Assembly (NCBI RefSeq): GCF_014303395.1
Contig: NZ_CP060298.1
Location: 3,367,001-3,431,000 of the forward strand
Length of the DNA: 64,000 bases
Origin: Nakamurella sp. PAMC28650
Lineage (GTDB): Bacteria > Actinomycetota > Actinomycetes > Mycobacteriales > Nakamurellaceae
Direction: 5' to 3'
A program made the position numbers and the translations under genes. Position 1 is the first letter of the stretch; every line of letters starts with the position of its first letter. The notes below the pieces were generated by a model that ran no database searches, was not told the origin of the DNA, and was given only the letters and a program-made list of their open reading frames with translations. Below are positions 54,764 through 62,142 of this stretch, in pieces.

Positions 54764-55135
54764 ATGGCCATGGCGTCGATTGCCGGCAACGAGCTGGGCA
54801 GACGGGGCGAAGATCTGGCGGCCGCGCACCTGGAGGGTCTGGGGTTGGTGATCCTGATGCGCAACTGGCGGTGCAAGGAGGGCGAGATCGACATCGTCGC
54901 CACCGACGGTCTTCAGCAGGTGGTGATCTGCGAGGTGAAGACCCGCAGCGGCGACGGATTCGGTTCACCGTTCGAGGCGGTCACCCAGGGCAAGCGGCGC
55001 AAGCTGCGACGGCTGGCCCAGGTCTTCCTCGCCGACTACGGGATGCGGTGGGTCAGCGTCCGGTTCGACGTGATCGGGGTCCTCGCGCGCCCCGGCCAGG
55101 AGGTCGAGCTTTCGCACATCGAGCAGGCCTTCTGA
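54764..55135 (+). CDS. yraN: YraN family (UPF0102) endonuclease-like protein
   Basis: 123 aa. Restriction-endonuclease-like fold with GNELGRRGEDLAAAHLEG, NWRCKEGEIDIVATDG and VICEVKTRSGDGFGSP, i.e. the E/D-x-K type nuclease motif. Homologous to Rv2898c. Start taken at 54764; the ATG at 54770 is equally possible. In mycobacteria and relatives comM and dprA come next; here the gene runs 171 bp into the convergent larC instead. Confidence 0.92.
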   Translation: MAMASIAGNELGRRGEDLAAAHLEGLGLVILMRNWRCKEGEIDIVATDGLQQVVICEVKTRSGDGFGSPFEAVTQGKRRKLRRLAQVFLADYGMRWVSVRFDVIGVLARPGQEVELSHIEQAF

Positions 55136-56344
55136 CGGGGCGGCCGGCAGCGGCCCGCCGACGACCAGTCCGGCGCGGTGGGCGGCCGAGACCGCCGCGT
55201 CCAGCACCTCTGCGGTGGGCCGGCGCGAATCCTGGGCGGCAGCCTGCACGGTGTCGAACTCGGGGGTCGCCCGGACGATCCGGCCGTCGCGGTGGGCGAT
55301 CTTGATGGCCACGGTGCTGCCGGCGACCGGCAGGTCGACCCAGCTCCTGGCCAGGACGTCCCTGTCGACCCGGTGTTCCCGGATGCCGATGGTGCTGGTG
55401 AGCGCGAAGATGCTGGCCCGCAGCAGCCGGCCCTGGGCGGGTCGGCACAGCACGCTCAGGGTGTGGGCCGGACGGCCCTTCTTCATCAGGATCGGGGTGA
55501 GCCACGCGTCGGCCGCCCCGTCCGCCAGGAGGGCCGTCAGGACGCCCGGCCACAGACGCGGGTCCATGTCGTCGATGTTGGTCTCCAGGACGAGGCCGGA
55601 CTCGGTCCCGGCGTCCGGTGAGGTGGGACTGCCGATCAGGACCCGGGTGACGTTCGGTCGATCCGGGAAGTCTTTGCTGCCGGCCCCGATCCCGATGGCG
55701 TGCAACGTCATCGGCGGGAGCGGCTCGCAGGCCGTGGCCAGCGTGGTCACCAGCGCCATCCCGGTCGGAGTGGTCAGTTCTCCGCGGCCACCGGTGCTCA
55801 CCTGCCAACCGATGGCGAGTTGCGCGACGGCCGGTACCGGCACGGCGATATCGCCGTGGGCGGTGGTGATCCGCCCGGAGCCGACCGCGACCGAGCCCGC
55901 GGTGATGCCGGTGATGCCGAGATCGTCGATGGCCGCGCAGACCCCGACCACGTCGGCGATCGAATCGAGGGCTCCGACCTCGTGGAAGTGCACGTCGTCC
56001 GCCGGGATGCCGTGGACGCGGGCCTCGGCGTCGGCCAGATGCGCGAAGACGGCCAGCACCCGGTCACGGATCGCGGGGTCCAGGTCGCCGCCCGCCAGCA
56101 GGATGCGGAGGTCGGCCCACCGGCGGTGCGGCGGGTCGTCGACCAGCACTGCGACATCGACCTTGGTGGCCCGCTGCCCCGCGCGGTCGACCTGGGTCCG
56201 ATCCAGCCGGACGGAACCGGGGATCACCAGGTCGACGGCCCGCTGGATGCCGGACAGCTGCGCGCCGGCGTCGAGCAGTGCGCCGAGCAGCATGTCGCCG
56301 GCCACCCCGGCGGACGCATCGATCCAGGCGTGTCCCCCCGTCAT
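54965..56344 (-). CDS. larC: LarC: nickel insertion into the pincer cofactor
   Basis: 459 aa. CTP-dependent cyclometallase that inserts Ni into the LarA pincer nucleotide. LarC signatures: WIDASAGVAGDMLLGALLDA, FHEVGALDSIADVVG, HGDIAVPVPA, GELTTPTGMALV, ETNIDDMDPRLWPG and MKKGRPAHTLSVLC. In Lactiplantibacillus plantarum larC is split into two frames; here it is one frame. The last roughly 55 residues, after AAHRAGLVVGGPLPAAPSE, lie antisense to yraN and look non-family, so the C-terminus is probably extended by loss of a stop. ATGA overlap with larB. Confidence 0.93.
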   Translation of the reverse strand: MTGGHAWIDASAGVAGDMLLGALLDAGAQLSGIQRAVDLVIPGSVRLDRTQVDRAGQRATKVDVAVLVDDPPHRRWADLRILLAGGDLDPAIRDRVLAVFAHLADAEARVHGIPADDVHFHEVGALDSIADVVGVCAAIDDLGITGITAGSVAVGSGRITTAHGDIAVPVPAVAQLAIGWQVSTGGRGELTTPTGMALVTTLATACEPLPPMTLHAIGIGAGSKDFPDRPNVTRVLIGSPTSPDAGTESGLVLETNIDDMDPRLWPGVLTALLADGAADAWLTPILMKKGRPAHTLSVLCRPAQGRLLRASIFALTSTIGIREHRVDRDVLARSWVDLPVAGSTVAIKIAHRDGRIVRATPEFDTVQAAAQDSRRPTAEVLDAAVSAAHRAGLVVGGPLPAAPSEGLLDVRKLDLLAGAREDPDHVEPDADPPHPVVGEEDLGQPSQLAPLALGDRLER

Positions 56345-57012
56345 CCCGGTGGCACCGGCGCAGCGATCTGTGCCGCCAGATGGCCTGCGCCGTAACCATT
56401 GTCGATGTTGACGACGCCGACGCCCGGCGAGCAGGAATTGAGCATGGACAGCAGCGCGGCGACGCCGCCGAACGAGGCACCGTATCCGACCGATGTCGGT
56501 AGCGCGATGACGGGCGCGGAGACCAACCCGGCCACCACGCTGGGCAGGGCCCCGTCCATCCCGGCGGCCACGATCAGCACCCTGGCGCTCCGCAGCAGCT
56601 CCAGCCGGGCCAGCACCCGGTGCAGTCCGGCCACCCCCACGTCGACGACCAGCGCGGTGGGACGTCCGAGATACTGCGCGCTCAGCAGCGCCTCGCGGGC
56701 GACCGGCAGATCCGAGGTTCCGGCGCTGACCACCACGACGAGCCCCCCGGTCGGCGAAGGGGGAGCGGAGGGCCAGATGACCAACCGGGAATCGTCGTCG
56801 TGCAACGCCTCCGGGAGTTCACCGAGGATCGCGTCGGCGTGGGCCGGTGTCGCCCTGGTGAACAGGACCACACCGTCGGCCCGGTCCCGGAACGCTGCGG
56901 CGATCTGCGCGACCTGCCCGACGGTCTTGCCCTGGCACAGGACGGCCTCCGGATAGCCGCGGCGCTGGGCCCTGGTGAAGTCCAGGGTGGCGAAATCCTC
57001 GAGCTCAGCCAT
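56341..57012 (-). CDS. larB: LarB: pincer cofactor biosynthesis, NaAD carboxylase/hydrolase
   Basis: 223 aa. Carboxylates the pyridinium ring of nicotinic acid adenine dinucleotide and releases AMP, the first step of the nickel-pincer cofactor. Related to PurE-type proteins; family motifs FTRAQRRGYPEAVLCQGKT, VVVSAGTSDLPVAREA, VGVAGLHRVL, VAAGMDGALPSVVAGL and NIDNGYGAGHLA. The ATG overlaps the larE stop by 8 bp. NaAD is an intermediate downstream of the nadABC route also encoded in this window. Confidence 0.94.
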   Translation of the reverse strand: MAELEDFATLDFTRAQRRGYPEAVLCQGKTVGQVAQIAAAFRDRADGVVLFTRATPAHADAILGELPEALHDDDSRLVIWPSAPPSPTGGLVVVVSAGTSDLPVAREALLSAQYLGRPTALVVDVGVAGLHRVLARLELLRSARVLIVAAGMDGALPSVVAGLVSAPVIALPTSVGYGASFGGVAALLSMLNSCSPGVGVVNIDNGYGAGHLAAQIAAPVPPG

Positions 57013-57841
57013 CGACCCGGACCAGCGGCAGGGTGAACGCACCGGACTGCACCCCGGCCAGATCGACGGCGGCGAAGCGGAAGCCGCTAGCCTCGGCCGC
57101 CTGCCGGATTCCGCTCCGCACCGGTTCGTGCACGGCCCGCAACAGATCGTCCTCGGTCAGTTCGATGCGGGCGACGTCACCGTGGTGCCGGACCCGTAGA
57201 TTGCCCAGACCCAGCCGGCGCAGGGCGGACTCCGTCTTCTCGATCTGCCGCAGCTTCTCGGGGCTGACGCTCTGGAAGTGCGGGACGCGGGAGGCCAGGC
57301 ACGGAGCGGCCGGCTTGTCGGCGCACGGCAGCTGCCAGCTCCTGGCCAGCCGCCGGACCGCGGCCTTGTCCAGACCGGCCTCGACCAGCGGGCGCAGCAC
57401 GTGGTGGTCCGTCGCGGCGCGGGCACCCGGACGGTCCGGCCGGAGCGAGTCGTCGGCGTTCTCGCCGTAGCCCACCGCATCCAGCCGGTGGGCGGCGATC
57501 ACCTCGTCGTCGATCCGGGTGAAGAGCTCGTCCTTGCAGTGGAAGCAGCGATCCGGTCCGTTGGCGCGGTAGGCCGGTCGGTCGCCCTCGAAGGTCGCGA
57601 CCTCCACGACCGGCACCCCGATGAACCGGGCCACCTCGTGGGCCGCGGTCCGCTCGTCCGCGGCCAGGCTGGGCGAGACCCCCAGCACGGCGACCACCCG
57701 ATCCGCGCCGAGGATCCGGACCGCCGCCGCCACCAGCACCGAGGAGTCCACGCCGCCGGAGAAGGCGACGCCCAGCCGCGTCACCCCCTCCAGGGCGACC
57801 CGGATGCGTTGCAGCGCAGCTTCTTCCCAGACCATGGTCAT
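57005..57841 (-). CDS. larE: LarE: ATP-dependent sulfur transferase of the pincer cofactor
   Basis: 278 aa. Adenylates the carboxylated pyridinium mononucleotide and transfers sulfur. PP-loop SGGVDSS (residues 28-34) and the CLASR segment with Cys181, at the position of the sacrificial Cys of L. plantarum LarE. C99-x2-C102 and C173 are additional cysteines; some LarE proteins use three Cys to hold a [4Fe-4S] cluster instead, so both mechanisms remain open. ATGA overlap with larA. Confidence 0.93.
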   Translation of the reverse strand: MTMVWEEAALQRIRVALEGVTRLGVAFSGGVDSSVLVAAAVRILGADRVVAVLGVSPSLAADERTAAHEVARFIGVPVVEVATFEGDRPAYRANGPDRCFHCKDELFTRIDDEVIAAHRLDAVGYGENADDSLRPDRPGARAATDHHVLRPLVEAGLDKAAVRRLARSWQLPCADKPAAPCLASRVPHFQSVSPEKLRQIEKTESALRRLGLGNLRVRHHGDVARIELTEDDLLRAVHEPVRSGIRQAAEASGFRFAAVDLAGVQSGAFTLPLVRVDG

Positions 57842-59136
57842 TGCTCTCCTCGTAACCGGAACAGGACCTCGCCGGCCTGGGGTAGGACGAGCGTGTCCGG
57901 GTCCGCCTCGAGGGCGGCCCGATCGACGCAGGCCGGGTCGAGGTAGTCCAGGTTAGCCGCGCGCACCACCGCTTCCGGGATGCCGGTGGCCAGCGTGACG
58001 GTGACCCGTCCGCGTTCGCCGTCCACCGGATCCCAGGTGCCGGCCCCCCGCAGGTGGGTCGAGTGCGCGAGGTCTCCCCAGTGGTGATCCTTGAATCTGT
58101 CCCACTGACCGAGGAAGTAGTCCCTGCAGTGGTAACCGATCTCGGTGATGGCCGGATGCATCGCGGAGAGCTCGTTGATGTGCGGTGCGTACAGGATGAC
58201 CTGTCCGCCGTCGGCCACCACCGGCTCGACCTTGTAGAACCCCTTGGCCCCCGTCCACATGTCCTGGTAGCGGGTCGGGATGATCGAGAGCACCCTGGCC
58301 ACCGGCGCGTCCAGGTACCGGACGTGGGTCAGGGCGGAGATGTCGGCGCAGGCCGCCCAGGCCGCCTCAGGGGTTCCGAAGGACGCCGCGTGCAACGCGT
58401 CGGTGCCGGACTCGGCGACCAGGCACAGGGCCAGACGGCGGCTCGGGATCAACGAGGCCGCCTCGTCGATCAGGGCGCGGACCGGAGTGATGCCGCGGGT
58501 CCCGATGATCTCGACGCTGCTGATCAGGGCCCCCAGCCAGTGCGAGAAGTCGATGACCTCCGGCCCGGCCACCCCGGGGAAGAAGTACTTGTTGCCGCCG
58601 GAGAAGCCGACCACTTCGTGCGGGAACACCGGCCCGACGACGATCGCGACATCGTGATCGACCACCGCCCGGTTCAGCACCACCTCGACGCTGCGGTGCA
58701 GTCGACCCCCCGACAGCTCGCCGACCCGCTCGGCGCTGATCGAACCGAGCGAGACGAACGTGTCCGGGTTCCACCACTCGTGGTTGCGGATCGTCATACC
58801 GGGGTAGGTGGCCGCCAGAGCGCCCTCGGCGTACCCGAGGTGCCGGGCCAGCTGGGCCTCGTCCATCGCGGCGTGGGTCCCCAGGGCGATCAGCACGGTG
58901 ACCTGGACGGCCCGTCCGGACAGGGCCCCGTGGAGGGCGGACAGCAGCAGTGGAAGCGGACAACTGCGCGTGCCGTCCGGGACGATCACGCAGACGCTCC
59001 TGCCGTCGAGGTCCTGTGCGGCCAGGGATTCGGCGACGAAGTCCCGGATCCGCTGCGGCGTCAGTACCCCCTGCGAACCACCGATCAGGGTGGCGCCGGA
59101 CCCGACCTCGCCGGCGGCTGACAGGGTGTTCCTCAT
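57838..59136 (-). CDS. larA: LarA homologue: nickel-pincer racemase/epimerase
   Basis: 432 aa. DUF2088/LarA family. Residues matching L. plantarum LarA: PDGTR (Asp54, Arg57), GTH (His88), a His in HEVVGFSGGNKYFFPG (His173), Lys183 that holds the cofactor, and Ni-ligand His199 in DFSHWLG. The 10- and 16-residue spacing of His173, Lys183 and His199 is the same as in lactate racemase. The substrate is not lactate by default: this superfamily includes 2-epimerases of longer hydroxyacids. First gene of larA-larE-larB-larC. Its ATG (59136-59134) overlaps the ATG of the divergent dehydrogenase fusion. Confidence 0.93.
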   Translation of the reverse strand: MRNTLSAAGEVGSGATLIGGSQGVLTPQRIRDFVAESLAAQDLDGRSVCVIVPDGTRSCPLPLLLSALHGALSGRAVQVTVLIALGTHAAMDEAQLARHLGYAEGALAATYPGMTIRNHEWWNPDTFVSLGSISAERVGELSGGRLHRSVEVVLNRAVVDHDVAIVVGPVFPHEVVGFSGGNKYFFPGVAGPEVIDFSHWLGALISSVEIIGTRGITPVRALIDEAASLIPSRRLALCLVAESGTDALHAASFGTPEAAWAACADISALTHVRYLDAPVARVLSIIPTRYQDMWTGAKGFYKVEPVVADGGQVILYAPHINELSAMHPAITEIGYHCRDYFLGQWDRFKDHHWGDLAHSTHLRGAGTWDPVDGERGRVTVTLATGIPEAVVRAANLDYLDPACVDRAALEADPDTLVLPQAGEVLFRLRGEQ

Positions 59137-61189
59137 GGGAGAACCTTGCACCGATGGCCCGGCGGCTGCAAATGTGTTGCCACGGCCGCCTGTTCGCATC
59201 GTCCACCTGGGCCTCGGCAATTTCTTCCGGGCCCATCAGGCCTGGTACACAGCGCACTCCCCGGACGCGTCGCAGTGGGGGATCGTCGCGTTCACCGGCC
59301 GGTCGACGGCCCTGGCCGAGGCGCTCACCGCCCAGGACTGCCGCTACACGCTGATCACCAGGGCGGCCGGGGGTGACACGGCCGAGGTGATCGGCAGCGT
59401 GGTCCAGGCGTTCCCCGGAGGCCGCCGCGAGGAGTTCCTCCGGTACCTGGCCGATCCCGCTGTCGCCGTGGTGACGCTGACGATCACCGAGGCCGGGTAC
59501 GTCCAGGGCGGAAGCGATTCGGCGGCGGGCAGGTTGGTGGAGGGTCTCGCGGCCCGTCGCGCGGCCGGGGGCGGTCCGCTGACGGTGGTGTCCTGCGACA
59601 ACCTCCCGGAGAACGGTTCGGTGACCTCGCGGATGGTCGGCGAGCATGCGGCCTCGGTCGATCCGGGACTGGCCGGATGGATCTCCGAGCACGTCAGCTT
59701 CGTCACCACGATGGTCGACCGGATCACCCCGGCCACCACGGCAGCGGACGGAGCGGTCGCACGGGAGCTGACCGGGTACGGCGACGCGGCCCCGGTCGTG
59801 ACCGAGCCGTTCTCGGAATGGGTGCTCAGCGGGCACTTCCCGGCGGGTCGGCCGTCCTGGGAGGCGGCGGGAGCCAGGTTCGTCCAGGACATCGCACCTT
59901 TCGAGCAGCGGAAGCTATGGCTGCTCAACGGTGCCCACTCGCTGCTGGCCTACGCCGGCAGCACTCTCGGCCACCTGACCATCGCCGAGGCCGTCGCAGA
60001 CCCCCGGTGCCTGGCCTGGGTGTCCGAGTGGTGGGACCTGGCGTGCGTCCACCTCACGTTGCCGGCCGGGGAGCTGGACGACTACCGGACGGCGCTGCTG
60101 GGGAGATTCGGGAACGCCCGGATACGGCACCTGCTGTCCCAGATCGCAGCGGACGGCTCGCAGAAGGTACCGGTCCGGTTCGTGCCGGTTCTCCGCCGGG
60201 AGCGTGCGGCCGGTCGAATGCCGGTGGGGGCGGTGCGGCCGGTGGCCGCCTGGATCAATCATCTGCGTGGGGCCGGCGTGCCGGTGAAAGATGTTGCGGC
60301 CGAACGGGTACAGGGGCTGGCCGCCGGTCCGCTGGAAGCGGCCGTCACGGCGGTCCTGGGATTCCTGGACGACGGTCTTGCTGCCGATCACGCTCTGGTG
60401 GCCGAGGTCCTCCGGCTGTGCGGGGTCCTGTCGGGGGTCGCTGCCGGGGTGCCACTGTCCCGGACGGCCGCCTCGATGGCCGTCGAATCGATCGGGTGGC
60501 GGTACCTGCTGGCCAACCTGTGCACCTCGGTCGCGGTCACCTCTACCCAGCAGGGTCTGTCGGTGGCTGCGGCAGCGGTGGCTGCGGCGGCGGTGGACGC
60601 CGGTGCAGATGCGGATCCGGGCGGTGCGCACCTGCACGTCGACCTCCGGCCGGACCGGGTGGAGATGTCGCTGCAGGACAGAACCACCGCGAGGGTCACG
60701 GCTCTCGATGTAATTCTGGCCCGGTGGATCACCACGGCCGTCGAGTCGCTCGGGCTCAGGACCTCGGGGGCGACGGCGGCCGCATCGACGCCTCCGGTAC
60801 AGATGCTCGAGATGGCCATCGACGCGATGGACATCGCGGCAATCCGGCCGTTCTGGAAAGCCGTGATGGCCTACGGCGACGAACCGGGGCTCGGTGGTCC
60901 CGAGGACGCCGTGGTCGACCCCGCCGGCCGGCTGCCGGCGATCTGGTTCCAGCAGATGCACGAGCCACGTCGGCAACGGAACCGGGTGCACTTCGACATC
61001 ACGGTGGCCCACGACGAGGCGGCCGCCAGGGTGGCCGCTGCGCTGGCGGCCGGCGGCGTCCTGGTGGACGAGTCCTCCGCGCGGTCCTTCTGGGTGCTGG
61101 CCGACGTGGAGGGCAACGAGGTGTGCGTCTGCACCTGGACCGATCGCGACGAGCGCGACGAACGGGAGCGTCTGGCTCAGGGCGGCTGA
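59135..61189 (+). CDS. Mannitol/uronate-type dehydrogenase fused to PCD-like and VOC domains
   Basis: 684-aa fusion. Residues 1 to about 440: long-chain polyol dehydrogenase family (mannitol dehydrogenase, fructuronate/tagaturonate reductase), with IVHLGLGNFFRAHQAWY and the catalytic K-x4-N-x2-H motif (Lys260, Asn265, His268). About 450-545: a pterin-4a-carbinolamine-dehydratase-like segment (GWRYLLANLCTSVAVTSTQQ) without the usual His-His-Pro active site. About 552-675: a VOC/glyoxalase-like domain (LEMAIDAMDIAAIRPFW, then RLPAIWFQQM and WVLADVEGNEVCVCTW). PCD-VOC pairs exist alone in actinobacteria; joined to a dehydrogenase they are not known to me. No internal stop. Divergent from larA and overlapping the convergent HxlR gene by 13 bp. 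Confidence 0.85.
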   Translation: MGEPCTDGPAAANVLPRPPVRIVHLGLGNFFRAHQAWYTAHSPDASQWGIVAFTGRSTALAEALTAQDCRYTLITRAAGGDTAEVIGSVVQAFPGGRREEFLRYLADPAVAVVTLTITEAGYVQGGSDSAAGRLVEGLAARRAAGGGPLTVVSCDNLPENGSVTSRMVGEHAASVDPGLAGWISEHVSFVTTMVDRITPATTAADGAVARELTGYGDAAPVVTEPFSEWVLSGHFPAGRPSWEAAGARFVQDIAPFEQRKLWLLNGAHSLLAYAGSTLGHLTIAEAVADPRCLAWVSEWWDLACVHLTLPAGELDDYRTALLGRFGNARIRHLLSQIAADGSQKVPVRFVPVLRRERAAGRMPVGAVRPVAAWINHLRGAGVPVKDVAAERVQGLAAGPLEAAVTAVLGFLDDGLAADHALVAEVLRLCGVLSGVAAGVPLSRTAASMAVESIGWRYLLANLCTSVAVTSTQQGLSVAAAAVAAAAVDAGADADPGGAHLHVDLRPDRVEMSLQDRTTARVTALDVILARWITTAVESLGLRTSGATAAASTPPVQMLEMAIDAMDIAAIRPFWKAVMAYGDEPGLGGPEDAVVDPAGRLPAIWFQQMHEPRRQRNRVHFDITVAHDEAAARVAAALAAGGVLVDESSARSFWVLADVEGNEVCVCTWTDRDERDERERLAQGG

Positions 61190-62142
61190 GGGACCAGCTC
61201 GAATCGTAGTTGCTGCCGGGCCATCGGCTGCCGGCACTGCGCGCAGCGAAGGAAGGGTTGGAACGGGTGCCCGCCGGCGTGGTGGAGGATGGCGAGTCCC
61301 GTACCCGGCGGCTGCGGATACCAGCGCTGGGCCCAGTCGAGGAGGAAGGCGAAGACCGGGAAGAACCCGAGACCCTTGTCGGTCAGCCGGTACTCCTCGC
61401 GGTCCACAGCGGTGCGGACCCGGCGCAGCACACCCAGTTCCTGGAAGCGGCCGAGCCGGTCGCTCAGCACGCCTGGCGCGATCCCGAGCTCCCTCTGGAA
61501 GTCGGCGAACCGGCGCACCCGCAGGAAGGCGGCGACCAGCAGCACGGTGCTCCACCGGTCGCCCAGGATCTCCAACGTCTGCGGCCGGTACGAGTCGGCG
61601 CGGGTCCGGTCGCGATCGCGCACCGTCCGGCGGTGATGACGAGCCACCGCCACCCTGCGGAAGGTGATCTCCGGGCCGGTGGTCACCGAGGTGTCCCGGG
61701 CCGTCACGGGGGCGGCGGAGCAGGTCCGGCAACCCAGCTCGGGCACGGTGAACCGGCCGCAGGTCAGATGCTCCAGACGGGCCGCCGCAGGGGAGTCCCG
61801 GCCGCCCGGATCGACCCAGGCCTGTTCCCACGACCAGATCGCCACGAGGAACTGCCAGAGGGGAAGACCCTTCTCGGTCAGTCGGTATTCCGTCCGGCGG
61901 CGACCACTGGTCCGGTAGGGACCGGGCGCCAACACGTCCGCGGCGACGAGTTCCCGGATCCGGGCGGACAGCACCGAGTCCGCCACGTCGAGGCTGTCGC
62001 GCCAGTCCGCGAACCGCCGGACGTGCCGGAGGAAGGCCTGTTGCAGGATCAGCAGGTTCCACTGGTCGCCGACCAGCAGCAGGGCCGAGCCGATCGCGCT
62101 CGGGGCGGGCGTGGCGGGTGTCGGCTCGTTCATCGGGCTCAT
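61177..62142 (-). CDS. Tandem double-HxlR winged-helix transcriptional regulator
   Basis: 321 aa with two HxlR-type winged helices in one chain: the first about residues 15-105 (LLLVGDQWNLLILQQAFLR; RIRELVAADVL; YRLTEKGLPLW) and the second about 175-270 (ILGDRWSTVLLVAAFLRVRR; RLGRFQELGVL; YRLTDKGLGFF). Each is followed by Cys residues (GCRTCSAA; LRCAQCRQ), resembling small zinc ribbons or redox sites. HxlR proteins normally dimerise, so a covalent pseudo-dimer is implied. Divergent from the thiolase-like gene, the likely target. ATG at 62142; ATG 62133 is an alternative. Confidence 0.85.
   Translation of the reverse strand: MSPMNEPTPATPAPSAIGSALLLVGDQWNLLILQQAFLRHVRRFADWRDSLDVADSVLSARIRELVAADVLAPGPYRTSGRRRTEYRLTEKGLPLWQFLVAIWSWEQAWVDPGGRDSPAAARLEHLTCGRFTVPELGCRTCSAAPVTARDTSVTTGPEITFRRVAVARHHRRTVRDRDRTRADSYRPQTLEILGDRWSTVLLVAAFLRVRRFADFQRELGIAPGVLSDRLGRFQELGVLRRVRTAVDREEYRLTDKGLGFFPVFAFLLDWAQRWYPQPPGTGLAILHHAGGHPFQPFLRCAQCRQPMARQQLRFELVPQPP

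Follow-up and report, generated by a model that had tools for sequence, protein, structure and literature searches.

A LarA-type gene lying head-to-head with a dehydrogenase gene raises the question of which pathway the two products might share. This was analyzed for a block at positions 54965-61189 of a 64,000-nucleotide stretch of the Nakamurella sp. PAMC28650 genome (NZ_CP060298.1, positions 3,367,001 to 3,431,000; hereafter the window), in which larC, larB, larE and larA on the minus strand are followed by a single long, divergent open reading frame (ORF) on the plus strand. Pfam and NCBIfam matches confirmed what a preliminary description of this DNA had stated, namely that all four lar genes are present and face a gene of the mannitol/fructuronate-dehydrogenase family. 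Our answer, to which we assign a probability of about 70%, is that larA, the cofactor genes and the dehydrogenase would form a nickel-dependent bypass from D-fructuronate through D-mannonate to D-gluconate.

According to this proposal the dehydrogenase would reduce D-fructuronate to D-mannonate with NAD(P)H. LarB, LarE and LarC would make the nickel-pincer nucleotide loaded into LarA, which would move a hydride off and on C2, with two histidines as acid and base, and so give D-gluconate; this chemistry is carried over from the family (PMC7583248). Gluconokinase would then pass 6-phosphogluconate into the pentose phosphate pathway. The fructuronate itself would come, in many related loci, from a glucuronate isomerase (UxaC) encoded nearby. 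The proposal is built on gene content, intact catalytic and cofactor residues, an epimerase signature, a recurrent neighbourhood, and a genome which has a gluconokinase and gives no UxaC or UxuA match at the thresholds stated below. If it is true, a nickel enzyme would take the role of the dehydratase UxuA in the glucuronate degradation of a broad set of Actinobacteria, and carbon would enter 6-phosphogluconate and the pentose phosphate pathway, not 2-keto-3-deoxygluconate (KDG). Actinobacterial LarA of the GntE type, whose native substrate was left open by its discoverers, would gain a testable natural substrate and partner genes.

LarA is predicted to be a gluconate/mannonate epimerase

The larA gene (57838..59136, minus strand) encodes a 432-residue predicted D-mannonate/D-gluconate 2-epimerase of the GntE type, a member of the Lar_N family (PF09861, 75.7 bits). 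Residues matching D72, R75, H108, H174, K184, H200 and K298 of LarA, the cofactor-binding and catalytic set listed in PMC7583248, are present in all 82 rows of a subfamily alignment to the structure 4nar. This alignment comprised the 80 loci described below, minus three with a stop in the matched piece, plus the window and the relatives G001, G049, G057 and G223. Both catalytic histidines are retained in the window protein, which rules out membership of the single-histidine LarA subfamily (PMC12611868).

Four further positions, E174, V175, A357 and H358, corresponding to F175, F176, W358 and T359 of LarA1, are invariant in the 82 members and reproduce the published E, V, A, H signature of gluconate epimerases (PMC11770544); the positions of A357 and H358 come from sequence alignment with 4nar and not from a structural superposition on LarA1. 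The catalytic His173 and the GntE loop residues Glu174-Val175 are encoded at 58612..58620 (minus strand). Sequence, profile and fold searches all returned 4nar, Thermotoga maritima GntE2, as the nearest solved structure by a wide margin (about 33% identity), so that the closest solved relative of the window protein is a proven gluconate epimerase. The earlier suggestion that LarA interconverts gluconate and mannonate is upheld by the signature, by the nearest structure and by recurrent linkage with UxaC and UxuB, joined at some loci by gluconokinase; as a prediction, this pair of substrates is well supported.

A fructuronate-reductase-like dehydrogenase with a fused C-terminal part

The plus-strand ORF had been taken for a plain dehydrogenase reaching 61189. 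Read from ATG 59135 it specifies 684 residues, but the dehydrogenase itself extends only to about residue 436, after which the frame runs on into a part resembling Pterin_4a and Glyoxalase_6. The fructuronate-reductase-like (UxuB-like) part with its Mannitol_dh and Mannitol_dh_C domains occupies 59174..60448 and the fused part 60449..61189, both on the plus strand; a counterpart of the latter is a separate gene in the relative G001. PF01232 and PF08125 matched at residues 21-425 and PF18029 at residues 560-666. In the stretch between them, Pterin_4a scores 13.7 bits here, under its cut-off, and 26.6 bits (cut-off 26) in P0002, a protein of the same fused architecture which is 74% identical over 97%. 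A frame error or missed stop behind the long ORF is not supported, because P0002 shares the architecture at this level of identity and no stop separates the two parts.

The divergent start region (59134..59173, given without strand) contains the larA ATG at 59134-59136 and an overlapping ATG at 59135-59137. The preliminary description had the dehydrogenase start at the latter, and its overlap with the larA ATG through a shared CATG is real. GTG 59174, at a distance of 37 bp from the larA ATG, is the more likely start, because the 671-residue database copy P0001, from the window's own protein cluster, starts there, and P0002 and P0003 have their starts close to this position.

Confident AlphaFold modelling extends to about residue 436, and solved long-chain dehydrogenases were matched over residues 13-439. 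PF01232, PF08125 and the mannitol dehydrogenase fold, which characterize the polyol-specific long-chain dehydrogenase superfamily, are all present. The glyoxalase part was poorly modelled, with a predicted local distance difference test score (pLDDT) mostly <50, and for this reason it has been given no fold. The nearest fold of the dehydrogenase is that of fructuronate reductase 4im7, and Gln stands where polyol enzymes have Arg. In a motif census of 52 UxuB rows, Gln was found in all 32 that matched, the other 20 being off-pattern and unscored. A loop deletion in the window protein, P0002 and P0003 was considered as a special trait, but the case is weak: of the 37 rows scored for it in the set of 52, six were short, and three of these were additional to the original ones. 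A natural fusion of glucuronate isomerase (UxaC) with a UxuB-like dehydrogenase was seen in P0023 (951 residues).

The dehydrogenase probably acts as a reductase upstream of LarA. It had been suggested to oxidise one of the two epimers; this is less likely, as the gene context suggests that fructuronate is reduced to mannonate ahead of LarA.

The cofactor genes

LarB, LarE and both LarC models exceed their NCBIfam cut-offs, while LarA was named via Lar_N. The gene for nickel insertion, larC (54965..56344, minus strand), matches PF01969 with 412.8 bits over the stretch 7-380, and the LarC1 and LarC2 models are above cut-off. Cofactor synthesis is assigned to larB (56341..57012, minus strand; NF033503, 270.3 bits, cut-off 175); its ATG at 57012 was picked from the sequence, and the ORF stays open upstream to GTG 57042. 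The sulfur insertase gene larE (57005..57841, minus strand) matches TIGR00268 with 260 bits (cut-off 150). These three genes fall outside 57838..61189, the coordinates initially given for the whole operon. Tight ATGA coupling, described for every junction, was read from the sequence at larA/larE and larB/larC; larE and larB are joined by an 8-base overlap (ATGGCTGA).

The LarE translation has an SGGVDS loop and four cysteines in all, located in CFHC, LPC and APCLASR. An SGGxDS loop and a CXXC-C motif are given for LarE of the [4Fe-4S] type in the part of PMC9283937 available. With these motifs, LarE is probably a [4Fe-4S] cluster-binding enzyme and not a sacrificial one, and the NCBIfam label "sacrificial" may misfit it because its CXXC-C cysteines are of the [4Fe-4S] type.

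Genes around related larA loci

A LarA profile search matched at least 592 stretches, of which 578 were confirmed, and the best 80 loci were analyzed. Partners were sought in the 10 kb around LarA by tblastn with proteins of the window and its relatives. This comparison of actinobacterial neighbourhoods, proposed in the preliminary description, bore out the association: UxuB lies near LarA in 52 of the 80 loci and UxaC in 49, with LarE in 30, LarB in 28 and LarC in 30. A LacI-type regulator was found in 42, an FGGY kinase in 15, a glycoside hydrolase family 2 (GH2) enzyme in 20 and a GntK-type gluconokinase in five, the LacI, FGGY and GH2 counts taking in matches of identity down to 24%. Among the 51 loci with full flanks, 36 have UxuB, 34 have UxaC and 14 have neither. 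Direct divergence of UxuB from larA (<700 bp between match ends) occurs in six of the 80. The linkage of larA to the dehydrogenase is more than chance. The bypass is supported by the recurrence of UxuB and UxaC near LarA and by a few loci in which gluconokinase or mannonate dehydratase adjoins larA.

Gene clusters of individual relatives were read as well (gene names in G001, G016, G049 and G057 are by eye unless scored with a model). The G001 cluster consists of sugar ATP-binding cassette transporter genes, uxaC, uxuB, two oxidoreductase-like ORFs, lacI, larA, gntK, larE, larB and larC. In Nakamurella lactea (G016), G049 and G057, larA is accompanied by uxaC, uxuB and lacI. N. lactea also has a beta-glucuronidase scoring above cut-off and an FGGY kinase for which gluconokinase is the best model, yet under cut-off (363 of 648.55). 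In G223, larC-larB-larE, larA, gntK and a gene of the UxuB family were found, with no UxaC match at E 1e-10. At locus L059, larA is joined by ManD (above cut-off), a 2-keto-3-deoxy-6-phosphogluconate aldolase (above the eda cut-off) and a KDG-kinase-like protein (below cut-off).

Eight Kribbella loci (L069, L075, L080, L081, L087, L091, L097 and L100; seven with full flanks) have larA outside uronate and lar cofactor clusters, with none of the partners named above nearby. It is possible that Kribbella LarA acts on a different substrate. At L069, L080 and L097, genes resembling flavin adenine dinucleotide-dependent oxidoreductases and flavin monooxygenases (by eye) lie near larA.

Distribution of the pathway genes

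A single Lar_N match was obtained in the genome containing the window (G000; 5.63 Mb, one contig). Its gluconokinase scores above cut-off and is encoded elsewhere than the lar block. No UxuA match (PF03786, E 0.001) was found in it, and ManD is represented by a weak relative in two adjoining pieces (60 and 48 bits). The canonical hexuronate pathway, recognized by UxaC and UxuA in the same genome, is not indicated in G000, where neither of the two gave a match at E 0.001.

In a survey of 394 genomes of the class, the LarA subfamily (E 1e-60) was found in 18, UxaC in 53 and UxuA in 20 (both E 1e-10). One of the survey searches scored the four best first-look candidates per genome, and the p-values ignore kinship. 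LarA and UxaC occur together in 14 of the 394 (p 2.5e-10), UxaC and UxuA in 11. Among the 53 genomes with UxaC, 14 have LarA, 11 have UxuA and none has both, the chance of no overlap being 0.022. LarA is patchy among kin: a close copy is present in four of 60 relatives, two of which belong to the 16 relatives within the genus, and five further relatives have distant Lar matches only. In a Corynebacterium glutamicum control strain UxaC was present and UxuA and Lar_N were not found, so that this control neither supports nor tests the bypass.

Relation to known systems

The preliminary description held the pairing to be undescribed, but its kind is in the literature. As recounted in the accessible portion of PMC6978723, Rodionova et al. 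(2012) located T. maritima gntE between the fructuronate reductase and gluconokinase genes and proposed the bypass; this account is uneven, naming elsewhere TM0042, similar to aldose 1-epimerases. In vitro proof of the epimerase step exists for GntE2 and GntE1 (PMC7583248), and Desguin et al. (2020) reported a uronic-acid gene context for group 19 of the LarA homologues (LarAHs), with aldarates as suggested substrate (PMC7583248). The pathway is thus not new in kind, having been proposed and partly proven for T. maritima. The present analysis adds how widely it would occur in Actinobacteria, together with UxaC, UxuB and gluconokinase, and a fused form, in the window, that lacks UxaC. A search of open-licence PubMed Central returned nothing on fructuronate reductase with lactate racemase, nor on Nakamurella with glucuronate; absence from print is not claimed.

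GntE2 (LarAH20) has the same catalytic and cofactor residues as the window LarA, and its company of fructuronate reductase and gluconokinase, as far as the excerpt of PMC6978723 describes it, resembles that in the window's relatives. It differs in loop sequence (E-S, against E-V in the actinobacterial window protein, at the identity of about a third noted above), and in contrast to the T. maritima system the window genome has no UxaC match and carries its gluconokinase at another site. GntE1 (LarAH19) of C. glutamicum, likened here by its published description only, is an actinobacterial gluconate epimerase from the group with uronic-acid context. The canonical Escherichia coli pathway, UxaC-UxuB-UxuA, has the fructuronate reductase step to D-mannonate in common, whereas its mannonate dehydratase UxuA, leading to KDG, would be replaced here by epimerisation to gluconate. 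The 6-phosphomannonate 2-epimerase route of Lactobacillus suebicus likewise links uronate catabolism to 6-phosphogluconate by C2 epimerisation; according to the same excerpt (PMC6978723), phosphorylation there comes before epimerisation, and no gene has been assigned to the epimerase.

Points against the bypass and alternative explanations

A number of observations weigh against the bypass. UxuB is absent from 28 of the 80 loci, and UxuB and UxaC are both absent from 25, counted on the flanks fetched, many of which are incomplete; the 14 full-flank loci lacking both include seven of the eight Kribbella loci. G000 gives no UxaC match (PF02614, E 0.001), leaving the window organism without the enzyme that normally provides fructuronate. 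The best of five Lar models for LarA, NF052594 (nickel-dependent putative hexonate epimerase), scores 150.6 bits, far under its curated cut-off of 500, and LarA was consequently not filed under it. The best of 12 models for the dehydrogenase, NF011611 (fructuronate reductase UxuB), scores 229.8 bits against a curated cut-off of 603, hence "UxuB-like" only. Over the 394 genomes the mutual exclusion of LarA and UxuA (no genome with both) is not significant (p 0.61), and 28 of the 53 UxaC genomes have neither. N. lactea, outside that sample, carries both, and strong ManD homologues were found in G001 and G223. Loss of UxuA as a strict rule is not supported by these data, and the bypass would be one of several solutions.

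The last such point is that the characterised actinobacterial GntE1 has a Km of 120 mM for mannonate, which made its authors doubt that this is the native substrate and propose aldarates for group 19 (PMC7583248). The C2 epimerisation by LarA might accordingly concern a different sugar acid, such as D-glucarate/D-mannarate, with the dehydrogenase serving a neighbouring uronate step. C2-epimerisation of D-arabinarate is known for some LarAHs, as stated in the part of PMC11770544 available, and the Kribbella genes outside uronate clusters would also fit. We regard this as unlikely, although it is the best of the alternatives: the recurrent partners UxaC, UxuB, GntK and ManD make or use mannonate or gluconate, which glucarate/mannarate would leave unexplained.

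It is similarly unlikely that the window module is a decaying import without a present metabolic role, its UxaC and transporter lost or never brought along and its end genes overrun. Such decay would agree with the missing UxaC match, with larC and uxuB running into their neighbours (see below) and with the larger clusters kept in relatives. However, all frames are open, LarA retains every conserved residue, and P0002 keeps the fusion, whose preservation one would not expect from drift alone.

Less probable still, the dehydrogenase might be a tagaturonate reductase or polyol dehydrogenase and LarA might act on altronate/allonate or an unrelated hydroxy acid, the two being mere neighbours. The D-arabinitol dehydrogenase model reaches 214.1 bits on the window protein, close to fructuronate reductase, and on the G223 partner it scores higher (245.5 vs 207.6). 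The nearest fold, 4im7, and the Gln in place of Arg nevertheless favour fructuronate reductase, and the neighbouring isomerase in G049 exceeds the cut-off of the glucuronate isomerase model. That LarA is an ordinary lactate-type racemase, as its Lar_N membership would allow, is rejected on the gluconate-epimerase signature and on 4nar as the nearest structure, and we give it next to no credence.

Origin of the block

In G001, yraN is followed by a membrane-protein-like ORF on the opposite strand (named by eye; no Pfam match) and then by a stand-alone gene whose product shares 68% identity with the fused glyoxalase-like part. The lar-uxuB block of the window sits between yraN and the glyoxalase-like part, and both of its outward-facing genes overrun their expected ends: larC at 54965-55135, antisense into yraN, and uxuB at 60436-60451, into the glyoxalase-like part. 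The last 55 codons of larC are involved, extending past the yraN stop (55133-55135), and this tail exceeds that of the 30 LarCs compared from other loci. In other loci (30 LarC, 51 UxuB) most proteins stop no more than a few to a few dozen residues away from the equivalent positions, UxuB exceptions including L070 (300 extra residues) and L059 (86). In L070 (Cellulomonas aerilata; near 8.3-9.8 kb) the frame stays open for about 300 codons past the expected end, a possible second read-through.

On the simplest account, the block probably arose by an insertion (or replacement) with its ends at the 3' ends of larC and uxuB, which would have removed both stops and fused uxuB to the gene resembling pterin-4a-carbinolamine dehydratase (PCD) and glyoxalase. 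The replacement version comes from one relative, G001, where alone the order yraN, membrane ORF, glyoxalase was seen. No yraN was found in five other loci matching the G001 ORF, loci of 2.4-3.7 kb in which a more distant yraN would escape, and the match in G000 is weak (79 bits, residues 13-134).

In a tree of 82 LarAs the window protein groups with five Micromonosporaceae, G049 and G057 (100 bootstrap/91 Shimodaira-Hasegawa-like approximate likelihood ratio test), apart from N. lactea and G001. Because it is of this Micromonosporaceae type, LarA was probably acquired horizontally. The window UxuB groups with P0002 and P0003 within a wider set that includes Nakamurella-named proteins (P0012, P0018). 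Import is for that reason indicated for LarA only, and larA and uxuB need not share a history. GC content gives no sign of import, the block (0.717) being near the window value (0.698). Two transposase-like ORFs (by eye) lie about 2.7 and 11.3 kb past the window end (L162, 6672-7655 and 15327-16571); the second recurs near-identically, in the part compared, elsewhere in the genome (L161, 10956-12200). They are possible agents of the insertion.

The window thus presents a module that was seemingly placed horizontally, separated from UxaC and joined to a further enzyme-like part. Could this PCD-like/glyoxalase-like part be a new uronate (aldose-ketose) isomerase replacing UxaC and giving a two-protein route from glucuronate to gluconate? 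The genome without a UxaC match, the fusion kept in P0002 and the UxaC-UxuB joining in P0023 would favour this. We consider it very doubtful, since in G001, a relative with UxaC in its genome, the part is encoded on its own near yraN, and since an accidental insertion accounts for the fusion.

Adjoining the fusion, at 61177-62142 on the minus strand, is a gene for a protein with two tandem helix-turn-helix stretches of the HxlR type. Members of the HxlR family are mostly single-domain, which makes the tandem arrangement unusual.

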